This document shows, in pieces, positions 30,107 through 58,439 of a DNA stretch of 64,000 nt; positions within the stretch are counted from its first letter, which is position 1, and the number at the start of each line of letters is the position of its first letter. Where the stretch lies: the NCBI GenBank assembly GCA_030429955.1, contig JAUIGO010000007.1, positions 1 to 64,000 on the forward strand. Reading direction: 5' to 3'. The position numbers and the translations under genes are program-made. Under the pieces are notes generated by a model. It was not told the DNA's origin and did not search any database. It saw only the letters and a list, made by a program, of their open reading frames with translations. Source of the stretch: Bacteroidia bacterium. Lineage in GTDB: Bacteria > Bacteroidota > Bacteroidia > Flavobacteriales > Flavobacteriaceae.

Positions 30107-31504
30107 ATGAATACTAAATACATTGATTTAATCAGTCAAACTTTCGATTTCCCACAAGATGAATTTAAACTCACCGACAATAAACTTCGCTTTCATGATG
30201 TAGACCTCATGCAGTTGGTTGAAGAGTATGGAGCACCTTTAAAATTCACCTATTTACCGCAAATATCAAACAATATACAACGTGCTAAAAATTGGTTTAA
30301 TACAGCCATTGAAAAGCATAACTATAAAGGAAAATATAACTATTGCTATTGTACTAAAAGTTCGCATTTTAAGCATGTGCTACACGAAGCTTTAAAAAAT
30401 GATATTCATATTGAAACCTCCTCGGCTTTTGACATTGACATTGTTGAAAACCTTAAAAAAGAAGGAAAAATCAATGATGATACTTATGTTATTAGTAATG
30501 GGTTTAAAAGAGCGCAATATGTCACAAATATTGCTAGGTTAATAAATAATGGCCACAAAAATGCTATTCCAATAATAGATAATTATGAAGAAATTGATTT
30601 GCTTTCAGAAGAAATAAAAGGCAAATTTAATATTGGGATTCGTATTGCCTCAGAAGAAGAACCAAAATTTGAGTTTTATACTTCTCGATTAGGCATTGGC
30701 TATAAAAATATAGTTCCTTTCTACAAAAATCAAATTAAAAACAATAAGAAAGTAAAACTAAAGATGTTGCACTTTTTTATAAACACAGGCATTAGAGATA
30801 ATGCTTATTATTGGAATGAATTGCTAAAATGTCTCAAGGTTTACACAAGCCTTAAAAAGATTTGTCCAACCTTAGACAGCTTAAATATTGGAGGAGGGTT
30901 TCCAATAAAAAATTCATTGGTTTTTGATTTTGATTATGAATATTTAGTTGACGAAATCGTAAATCAAATACAAGTCACTTGTGAAGAAGAAGGGGTTGAT
31001 GTACCAAATATTTTTACTGAATTTGGAAGTTTTACCGTTGGTGAAAGTGGTGGAGCTATTTATGAAATCTTATACCAAAAACAACAAAACGATCGTGAAA
31101 AGTGGAATATGATTAACTCATCATTTATCACTACACTTCCTGATACTTGGGCCATTAACAAACGTTTTATCATGTTGCCAATAAATCGATGGAATGACAC
31201 TTACGAACGTGTTTTACTTGGCGGACTCACTTGCGATAGCGATGATTATTACAATAGCGAACAGCACATGAACGCTATTTATTTGCCAAAATATAACAAA
31301 GACAAGCCATTATATATAGGCTTCTTTAATACTGGAGCTTACCAAGAAACCATTGGAGGATTTGGAGGTTTGCAACACTGTTTAATTCCGTCACCAAAAC
31401 ACATATTAATTGATCGAGATGAAGACGGAAACATCTCAACAAAATTATTTAGTGAACAACAAAAAAGTGAAGACTTACTTAAAATTTTAGGTTATGAAAA
31501 CTAA
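30107..31504 (+). CDS. speA: Biosynthetic arginine decarboxylase (fold III, PLP-dependent)
   Basis: The 465-residue protein is an alanine-racemase-fold decarboxylase of the Orn/DAP/Arg group, converting arginine to agmatine. The PLP Lys is Lys84 (YCYCTKSSHFKH). Further landmarks are IETSSAFDIDIV, HFFINTGIRDN, LNIGGGFPIK (phosphate-binding Gly-rich loop), FTEFGSFTVGESGG, LGGLTCDSDDYY with the active-site Cys-Asp, and FFNTGAYQET. It is shorter than the about 630-residue E. coli SpeA, as is usual for the Bacteroidota form. The last 11 bp overlap the agmatinase gene, which uses its product. Confidence 0.92.
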   Translation: MNTKYIDLISQTFDFPQDEFKLTDNKLRFHDVDLMQLVEEYGAPLKFTYLPQISNNIQRAKNWFNTAIEKHNYKGKYNYCYCTKSSHFKHVLHEALKNDIHIETSSAFDIDIVENLKKEGKINDDTYVISNGFKRAQYVTNIARLINNGHKNAIPIIDNYEEIDLLSEEIKGKFNIGIRIASEEEPKFEFYTSRLGIGYKNIVPFYKNQIKNNKKVKLKMLHFFINTGIRDNAYYWNELLKCLKVYTSLKKICPTLDSLNIGGGFPIKNSLVFDFDYEYLVDEIVNQIQVTCEEEGVDVPNIFTEFGSFTVGESGGAIYEILYQKQQNDREKWNMINSSFITTLPDTWAINKRFIMLPINRWNDTYERVLLGGLTCDSDDYYNSEQHMNAIYLPKYNKDKPLYIGFFNTGAYQETIGGFGGLQHCLIPSPKHILIDRDEDGNISTKLFSEQQKSEDLLKILGYEN

Positions 31505-32435
31505 AACCTACGCTGGAATTCCAGAAGAGCTTGCAAAATTAGAACAAGCAAAAATCGTATTGATTCCTGTACCTTATGATGGTACAAGTACATGGCAAAA
31601 AGGAGCTGATAAAGGTCCTGAAGCATTTTTAAATGCTTCCGAAAACATGGAGTTGTATGATATTGAGACTGACACCGAAGTTTATAAACAAGGTGTGTAT
31701 TTAGCTGATGCTGTGACCGAAAACAGTTCGCCAGAAGCTATGGTTGATGCTGTGCATGAAGCGACAAAAAGGTACATAAAGAAAAACAAATTTGTGACCA
31801 TTTTTGGAGGTGAACATTCTATCTCAATTGGTACCATTCGTGCTTTTAATGAAATGTATCCAAGCCTAACAGTTTTACAATTGGATGCTCATGCAGATTT
31901 ACGCAAAAGTTATGAAGGCTCAAAATGCAATCATGCTTGTGCTGTATATGAGGCTAGCCAAACAACCAATTTAATTCAAGTAGGTATTCGTTCTATGGAT
32001 ATTATAGAAAAAACGGTTATGGACGAAGACAAAACGTATTTTGCTCACGAAATGGCAGTTGATGATACTTGGATGGATTCAGCTATAGACCAAATGACAG
32101 ATAACGTGTTTATTACCATTGATCTGGATGCTTTTGATCCTTCAATTTTACCAAGCACAGGAACTCCCGAACCAGGAGGATTATTATGGTACGAAACACT
32201 AGAGTTTTTAAAGCAAGTATTTGAAGAAAAAAATGTGGTAGGTTTTGATATTGTAGAACTTTGTCCAAACCCTAAAGAAAAATCTTCAGATTTTCTTGCT
32301 GCAAAATTGTATTATAAAATGTTAAGTTATAAATTTCAAGATGAAGAAGCAGAAGATGATTATGACAACTCTTTTGACAGTTCATACGTAAATAAAAGTA
32401 ACAACTCAAAATTTAACGACGACGATGACTACTAA
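31494..32435 (+). CDS. speB: Agmatinase (ureohydrolase family)
   Basis: The 313-residue manganese enzyme hydrolyses agmatine to putrescine and urea. All metal ligands are visible: His108 (FGGEHSISIG), Asp131, His133 and Asp135 (DAHADLR), Asp210 and Asp212 (TIDLDAFDPS). The start is PVPYDGTSTWQKGADKGPEA, typical of the family. An unusual acidic, Asn/Ser-rich tail of about 30 residues follows the catalytic domain. It overlaps the upstream decarboxylase and the downstream DHS-like gene by 11 bp each, so three proteins are translationally coupled. Confidence 0.95.
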   Translation: MKTKTYAGIPEELAKLEQAKIVLIPVPYDGTSTWQKGADKGPEAFLNASENMELYDIETDTEVYKQGVYLADAVTENSSPEAMVDAVHEATKRYIKKNKFVTIFGGEHSISIGTIRAFNEMYPSLTVLQLDAHADLRKSYEGSKCNHACAVYEASQTTNLIQVGIRSMDIIEKTVMDEDKTYFAHEMAVDDTWMDSAIDQMTDNVFITIDLDAFDPSILPSTGTPEPGGLLWYETLEFLKQVFEEKNVVGFDIVELCPNPKEKSSDFLAAKLYYKMLSYKFQDEEAEDDYDNSFDSSYVNKSNNSKFNDDDDY

Positions 32436-33399
32436 AGGACCAATTTCTCAATTTATTCAAAAGCACTATTTACACTTTAATGCAGCAGCCTTGGTTGATG
32501 CAGCAAAAGGTTATGAAGCACAACTAGAATCTGGTGCAAAAATGCTAGTGTCGCTTGCTGGTGCTATGAGTACTGCAGAATTGGGTAAAAGTTTTGCTGA
32601 AATGATTCGTCAAGATAAAGTGCATATCATCTCTTGTACAGGAGCTAACCTTGAAGAAGACATCATGAATTTAGTGGCGCATTCGCATTACAAACGTGTG
32701 CCAAACTATCGCGATCTTACGCCTCAGGAAGAATGGGATTTACTTGAAAAAGGGCTGAATAGAGTAACAGATACTTGCATCCCAGAACACGAAGCTTTCA
32801 GGCGTTTGCAAGCACATATTTTTGATATCTGGAAAGAAGCTGAAGCTAAAGGCGAACGCTATTTACCACATGAATATATGTACAAAATGTTGTTATCTGG
32901 AGTATTGGAGCAATATTATGAAATTGATGTAAAAGACTCCTGGATGTATGCAGCTGCCGAAAAAAACCTGCCAATTGTATGCCCAGGTTGGGAAGACAGT
33001 ACGATGGGAAACATCTTTGCAAGCTATGTGCTTAAGGGAGAACTCAAAGCAAGTACCATGAAATCTGGTATTGAATACATGACCTTTTTAGCCGATTGGT
33101 ACACAGATAATTCTCAAAAAGACATTGGGTTTTTCCAAATAGGAGGCGGAATTGCAGGAGATTTTCCAATATGCGTCGTGCCAATGTTATACCAAGACAT
33201 GGAACGTACAGATACACCATTCTGGAGTTATTTCTGTCAAATAAGTGATTCAACCACAAGTTATGGTTCTTACTCTGGTGCTGTGCCAAATGAAAAGATC
33301 ACGTGGGGGAAATTAGATATCAATACACCAAAATTTATTATAGAAAGTGATGCAACTATAGTTGCGCCTTTAATTTTTGCTTATCTTTTAGGCATGTAA
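32425..33399 (+). CDS. Deoxyhypusine synthase-like protein (probable polyamine aminobutyl transferase)
   Basis: The 324-residue product is a bacterial member of the deoxyhypusine synthase family. NAD-site segments SLAGAMSTAELG (43-54) and SCTGANLEEDIM (70-81) are present, as are NLPIVCPGWEDSTMG (181-195), GFFQIGGGIAGDFP (235-248) and the presumed catalytic Lys296 in ITWGKLD. Bacteria lack eIF5A, the usual protein substrate. Overlap with agmatinase suggests it acts on putrescine or spermidine by the same NAD-dependent aminobutyl transfer, as in homospermidine formation; this is inference. Family assignment is firm, reaction uncertain. Confidence 0.88.
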   Translation: MTTKGPISQFIQKHYLHFNAAALVDAAKGYEAQLESGAKMLVSLAGAMSTAELGKSFAEMIRQDKVHIISCTGANLEEDIMNLVAHSHYKRVPNYRDLTPQEEWDLLEKGLNRVTDTCIPEHEAFRRLQAHIFDIWKEAEAKGERYLPHEYMYKMLLSGVLEQYYEIDVKDSWMYAAAEKNLPIVCPGWEDSTMGNIFASYVLKGELKASTMKSGIEYMTFLADWYTDNSQKDIGFFQIGGGIAGDFPICVVPMLYQDMERTDTPFWSYFCQISDSTTSYGSYSGAVPNEKITWGKLDINTPKFIIESDATIVAPLIFAYLLGM

Positions 33400-58353: not shown

Positions 58354-58357
58354 AAAG

Positions 58358-58439
58358 TACTCAAGGTGGGAATCGAACCCACACTTCCGAAGAAACTGGA
58401 TTTTGAATCCAGCGCGTCTACCAATTCCGCCACTTGAGC
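58358..58439 (-). tRNA. tRNA-Leu (anticodon CAA)
   Basis: Read on the minus strand, GCTCAAG begins the acceptor stem and pairs with CTTGAGT (one G-U). GTGGCGGAATTGGTAGACGC is the class II D-arm. The anticodon arm CTGGA-TTCAAAA-TCCAG has CAA in the loop, a short variable arm follows, and GGTTCGATTCC is the T arm. It is 82 nt long with no encoded CCA. It decodes UUG. Confidence 0.97.

Follow-up and report, generated by a model that had tools for sequence, protein, structure and literature searches.

A deoxyhypusine synthase-like enzyme of a Bacteroidota polyamine operon, also carried by phages, as a candidate homospermidine synthase

The operon and its deoxyhypusine synthase-like enzyme

A three-gene polyamine operon lies at positions 30107-33399, plus strand, of the 64,000-nt stretch of Bacteroidia DNA analysed here (the window), and its last gene encodes a protein related to deoxyhypusine synthase (DHS). 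We argue that this DHS-like enzyme probably makes homospermidine from putrescine. An initial annotation had read the three open reading frames (ORFs) as arginine decarboxylase, agmatinase and DHS-family genes overlapping by 11 bp each, and both the ORF coordinates and profile matches bear this out. The features are:

30107..31504, plus strand: AR-fold arginine decarboxylase, short and SpeA-like, 465 amino acids (profiles and solved-structure matches)
31494..32435, plus strand: agmatinase, 313 amino acids, overlapping the preceding decarboxylase gene by 11 bp (TIGR01230)
32425..33399, plus strand: DHS-fold enzyme of a distinct subfamily, 324 amino acids, proposed homospermidine synthase, overlapping the agmatinase gene by 11 bp (PF01916 and DHS fold; below the NCBIfam cut-offs for DHS, SpeY and CdmS)
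33310..33312, plus strand: codon of Lys296, which aligns with the catalytic lysines Lys329 of human DHS and Lys299 of CdmS (human and CdmS numbers from PMC10981699)
33427..33765, plus strand: small protein with an acidic tail, 112 amino acids, the next gene downstream of the DHS-like gene (ORF list)

Judged by profile scores and phylogeny, the DHS-like protein belongs to a subfamily distinct from SpeY and CdmS. It matches the family profile PF01916 (DS) at 146.5 bits, above the cut-off of 27, and passes none of the NCBIfam DHS models, which it matches at 75.5-109.2 bits. The true-DHS equivalogs PRK02301, PRK00805 and dhys gave 98.6-109.2 bits against cut-offs of 304.25-434, the SpeY model NF001980 gave 107.1 bits against 450, and the CdmS model NF002699 gave 90.4 bits against 500. 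CdmS-type proteins of the phylum score 563-599 bits (four scanned) and a SpeY-type protein 566.5 bits (one scanned); these two types, an archaeal-like type (L165) and the window type are the four PF01916 types seen in the phylum. On a tree of 83 proteins, built by a quick method that gave a long-branch warning, a branch 4.14 changes per column long with support 100 separates the window type from the nine outgroup rows. The available portions of the literature searched contained no report on this subfamily.

Structure prediction places the protein in the DHS fold, with the catalytic lysine. Its AlphaFold2 model (mean predicted local distance difference test score, pLDDT, 92.2) matches the DHS crystal structure 6w3z_C with a Z of 29.6 over 292 residues at a root-mean-square deviation of 3.1, and human DHS (1dhs) with a Z of 29.4 over 292 residues; the DHS chains at Z near 29 share 16-22% identity with it. 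The annotation's claim that catalytic Lys296 is kept holds: the residue lies in a TWGK motif and is invariant, together with Glu290, Trp294 and Asp191, in all 80 window-type sequences aligned, with identity of 98% or more in 138 of the 324 columns. Trp294, Glu290 and Asp246 are taken as the counterparts of human Trp327, Glu323 and His288. Alignment together with PMC10981699 equates human Lys329, Asp316 and Asp243 with window Lys296, Tyr283 and Asn196, and CdmS Glu293 with window Glu290. Four residues, Asn196, Tyr283, Asp246 and Cys250, are specific to the subfamily.

A bacterial DHS homologue is no open riddle in principle, because SpeY (homospermidine) and CdmS (agmatine coupling) have been published, and homospermidine from bacterial DHS homologues is already described (PMC9992855; PMC10407285). 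SpeY, studied in Anabaena and Pelagibacter (PMC9992855), resembles the window type in being a bacterial enzyme of the DHS fold family with the catalytic lysine and, as we propose, the same product; in Pelagibacter, speY also adjoins arginine-to-putrescine genes. SpeY nevertheless forms a separate clade and has Met, Leu and Asn where the window type has Asn196, Tyr283 and Asp246. CdmS, the caldomycin synthase of Thermus, shares the fold family, the catalytic lysine and a ureohydrolase partner, but carries Phe, Leu and Asn at these three positions, and agmatine is its only substrate (PMC10981699). Eukaryotic and archaeal deoxyhypusine synthases have the fold (Z ~29), glycines 240-242 and the active-site Lys, Glu and Trp in common with the window protein, and differ from it in their low identity and their protein target. 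As the annotation had expected of a bacterium, no eIF5A was found, with 0 PF01287 matches in the window's own genome (assembly 93% complete), and the corresponding lysine of elongation factor P (EF-P) is unconserved among carriers. Homospermidine synthase of the Blastochloris type (bacterial HSS) and carboxyspermidine dehydrogenase also yield triamines in bacteria, but belong to another fold family, and no such equivalog was found in the window's genome.

The two upstream genes would supply the enzyme with putrescine. The decarboxylase matches PF02784 at 48.6 bits (cut-off 23.4) and the SpeA models at 155-170 bits, under their cut-offs, and its three solved-structure matches (3n2o, 3nzq and 3nzp) are arginine decarboxylases. 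The agmatinase ORF matches PF00491 and passes the TIGR01230 agmatinase model at 231 bits (cut-off 174.3). Elsewhere in the window's genome, a second agmatinase-family gene (G000:C18:20086-20850) likewise scores above cut-off, at 196.6 bits. Promoter and terminator scans yielded about as much as shuffled sequence.

The three-gene arrangement is kept far beyond chance. In the best 80 named loci of at least 594 relatives, mostly Flavobacteriaceae by title, the decarboxylase lies near the DHS gene in 79, the agmatinase in 61 and the small acidic protein in 68; because the sampled loci are the closest relatives, these counts are biased to the window's own family. The acidic protein has no Pfam or NCBIfam match.

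Distribution of the enzyme and of canonical spermidine routes

Within the class, no sampled genome with a PF01916 gene has a canonical spermidine route. The class sample comprised 197 genomes, of which 142 carry a PF01916 gene and 139 the window type, a status assigned by score. Among 80 wide loci checked, 76 had the window type as best match, three had CdmS and one (L112) had no ORF match. Three genomes (G022, G064 and G054) hold a CdmS-like gene in place of the window type, and the copy scanned, that of G054, passes the CdmS cut-off. The PF01916 gene is single in almost every carrier; G111 and G326 have two copies. Both copies in G326 (L174 and L175) are window-type, with 87% and 67% identity to the window's.

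Canonical routes were counted by nspC and SpeE. The nspC route, scored at TIGR01047 matches of at least 338 bits, was present in 32 genomes, 25 above the curated cut-off and seven below. Weaker TIGR01047 matches were rejected as nspC: 139 of the 197 genomes match this model somehow, those outside the 32 at ~103 bits or less among the matches listed, and we took these as other decarboxylases. SpeE passes its cut-off in 13 of the 197 genomes and one genome has both, for a total of 44. All 44 fall among the 55 genomes without PF01916, against 0 of the 142 with it (Fisher test, 6e-34), and 11 genomes lack nspC, SpeE and PF01916 alike. Both states, PF01916 or a canonical spermidine route, occur within each of five family-level groups (f3, f20, f33, f56 and f61).

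Carriers of the window type appear to keep a supply of putrescine by one route or another. Of the 15 window-type genomes in which TIGR01230 finds no match at 1e-15, 14 have a full-length agmatine deiminase (at least 340 bits), compared with 9 of the 124 in which it does (Fisher test, 2e-12). This replacement of ureohydrolase by deiminase favours putrescine over agmatine as the substrate. Agmatinase at 184 bits or more was found in 37 genomes, all of them window-type carriers.

The window's genome follows the class pattern: nspC, SpeE and SpeD are all unmatched there at the thresholds used. PF03435, presumably the fold family of bacterial HSS, matches at four places in it. The two best were rejected as HSS: solved relatives such as 2axq identify L154 as a saccharopine dehydrogenase, and L153 is a weak relative of carboxynorspermidine synthase, scoring 54.3 bits where the cut-off is 800. 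The other two, L155 and L156, were read at the ORF level. Elsewhere in the class, eight DHS-positive genomes (G038, G039, G076, G103, G113, G169, G174 and G182) carry a SpeD-family gene and a SpeE-like protein of ~500 amino acids on the same contig.

Homospermidine and the alternative products

We consider it probable that the DHS-fold enzyme makes homospermidine from putrescine in an NAD (nicotinamide adenine dinucleotide)-dependent reaction, and this is our best explanation of the operon. In the pathway that we infer, the decarboxylase would convert arginine to agmatine and the agmatinase agmatine to putrescine. The DHS-fold enzyme would then oxidise one putrescine with bound NAD, keep the four-carbon unit bound to Lys296 as an imine, and transfer it onto the amino group of another putrescine, yielding sym-homospermidine. 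The annotation had offered two alternatives, a small-molecule transfer such as homospermidine formation or modification of an unknown bacterial protein. The former emerges as the better supported, since it fits the operon, the exclusion of spermidine routes, the deiminase/ureohydrolase pattern and the published polyamines of the family; the latter gained no support. Every member of Flavobacteriaceae is reported to have homospermidine as its major polyamine (PMC3072086), and two Flavobacterium species contain 27.3 and 20.5 umol/g of it, against 0.2 and 0.3 of spermidine (PMC8570120). It is a standard marker of the family, and the available portions of the literature searched name no enzyme that makes it there; a candidate gene makes the question of its synthase testable.

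Several observations weigh against this interpretation. Under looser limits, 12 PF01916 genomes hold a SpeD-family protein and 11 hold SpeD together with weaker SpeE relatives, nine of these being window-type carriers; one of the 11, G186, apparently has a SpeD-SpeE fusion. The exclusion therefore covers canonical routes only. Genome counts span related genomes, and the Fisher values ignore descent. Absences in the window's genome are uncertain because its assembly is 93% complete. The trait is said to be universal in Flavobacteriaceae, yet PF01916 finds no match in G279 and G308, two of the 19 genomes from that family in the phylum sample. Across the class, the decarboxylase lies within four genes of the DHS gene in only 20 of 76 window-type loci (3 further loci left out). 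Identity of relatives to the window protein, at 64-92%, is high for a small-molecule enzyme. Finally, Asn196 and Tyr283 occupy two spermidine-site positions that are Asp243 and Asp316 in human DHS, Phe and Leu in CdmS, and Met and Leu in SpeY (sites named in PMC10981699), so the substrate could differ from those of all three.

Two rival readings involve other small-molecule reactions. Following the route published for CdmS (PMC10981699), the enzyme might couple two agmatines into 1,9-bis(guanidino)-5-azanonane, from which the neighbouring ureohydrolase would trim both ends to give homospermidine. The agmatinase gene directly precedes the DHS-like gene, one viral contig (L268) has an arginase-family gene overlapping its DHS gene, and true CdmS-type genes are present in relatives within the phylum. 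We nevertheless regard this route as unlikely, given how far the protein stands from CdmS in both model score and tree. A ureohydrolase in every carrier would be expected of a CdmS-like route, and 15 of the 139 window-type genomes lack a TIGR01230 match at 1e-15. The deiminase found in 14 of these, three of them in the window's own family (G062, G095 and G196), speaks against it too. No route that passes through caldomycin and uses a deiminase is known to us; in the two of these loci that were fetched, G062 and G196, the decarboxylase directly precedes the enzyme. Spermidine cleavage, transfer to cadaverine or diaminopropane, or formation of a longer polyamine would suit the subfamily-specific Asn196, Tyr283, Asp246 and Cys250 and the described promiscuity of homospermidine synthases of the DHS family (PMC8437039). 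Such transfers strike us as very improbable all the same, with no spermidine-making gene in the window's genome at the thresholds used and homospermidine as the family's major polyamine (PMC3072086).

Modification of a protein, with the aminobutyl group placed on a lysine of EF-P or of the downstream acidic protein, for example, seems quite improbable as well. The very high conservation of the enzyme would suit a protein substrate, and mutual exclusion with spermidine synthesis points instead to a free polyamine. In the acidic protein, Lys17 and Lys65 are conserved across the 69 sequences aligned (1.00 after rounding); against its being the target, it sits downstream of the DHS gene in only 9 of 79 class-wide loci, however frequent among the closest relatives, and has no match in the viral pieces searched. 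EF-P, the bacterial relative of eIF5A and the obvious protein candidate, came into consideration through the position of its gene: efp is adjacent or close to agmatinase in at least eight carrier genomes, and aIF5A and agmatinase are likewise neighbours in Euryarchaeota (PMC5178350).

EF-P sequences exclude a universal modification of this protein. We examined EF-P in 48 of the 197 genomes, comprising carriers, spermidine-route genomes (10 of 44 resolved) and genomes with neither route (2 of 11 resolved). Of the 35 carriers resolved, 16 have Lys at the loop position, 18 have Asn and one has Arg; with the lysine missing from 19 of the 35, EF-P was rejected as a general target. All 10 spermidine-route and both neither-route genomes resolved keep the lysine, and in G173, outside the 35, the loop reads Lys by eye. 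Six of the eight genomes with efp near agmatinase lack it, and a block of efp, agmatinase and cysteine desulfurase occurs mostly in genomes without it. The enzyme may still act on another protein, or on EF-P in certain species. The same block recurs at L346-L351 (G036, G104, G134, G149, G093 and G194), where the EF-P loop reads PGNLR, without the usual lysine.

Phage-borne copies

Window-type DHS genes also occur on 54 IMG/VR contigs of uncultivated viruses (L257-L310), with 43-79% identity to the window protein. An ORF match was obtained at 49 of these 54 loci, and 39 copies were left after dropping near copies and one partial. Every one of the 39 keeps Lys296, Trp294, Glu290 and Asp191. The copies retain 89-138 of the 138 conserved bacterial columns; Glu150 and Ser274, both invariant in bacteria, are kept in 32 and 19 of the 39, respectively. 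Mapping the phage label onto the tree of 83 proteins needs six changes, two of them forced by starred branches.

Several of the viral contigs carry structural phage genes. A PF03237 terminase was found on five of the 50 viral records searched, four of them above the cut-off, on records of 464, 154, 115 and 97 kb, with no match on the other 45; the records of L262, L280, L308 and L310 were left out of this search. A major head protein match lies 1.7 kb from the DHS gene on L272, and L260 has a head maturation protease match that also matches ATP-dependent proteases. Among the matches listed for 116 proteins (240-800 amino acids, 11 contigs) are at least three terminases, one portal, one major head protein and one head-tail adaptor. 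For several of the viral contigs, which have terminase, head or portal genes, an origin by host contamination is not supported; single contigs may still be misassigned.

Searches of other collections gave no further phage copies. The window's DHS-like protein has no match among 50,697 GenBank phages (INPHARED) or in PHROGs, and a PLSDB search returned only two archaeal DHS at 23-24% identity. No viral homologue of DHS or SpeY was reported in a 2023 survey of the virosphere (PMC9992855), and the available portions of the literature searched contained no report of DHS in phages. Phage carriage of intact gene copies is the new element here, extending phage polyamine metabolism beyond the absence recorded in that survey.

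The phage copies probably make homospermidine during infection from host putrescine. On a broader proposal, which we think might equally prove right or wrong, this unassigned DHS-fold subfamily would be the missing homospermidine synthase of Bacteroidota without spermidine routes, and phages, including the one with a 464-kb contig, would have acquired it several times to make their own triamine in infection, perhaps for DNA packaging or translation.

The surroundings of the viral genes vary. No decarboxylase or deiminase relatives were found in the viral pieces searched. Two viral contigs hold a mini polyamine operon with an arginase-family ureohydrolase gene: at L268:4168-5966 this gene overlaps the viral DHS gene, and at L290:1334-3417 it stands beside the viral DHS gene in divergent orientation. 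In the window itself, the sole Rfam match is a tRNA-Leu (caa) at 58357-58439 on the minus strand.

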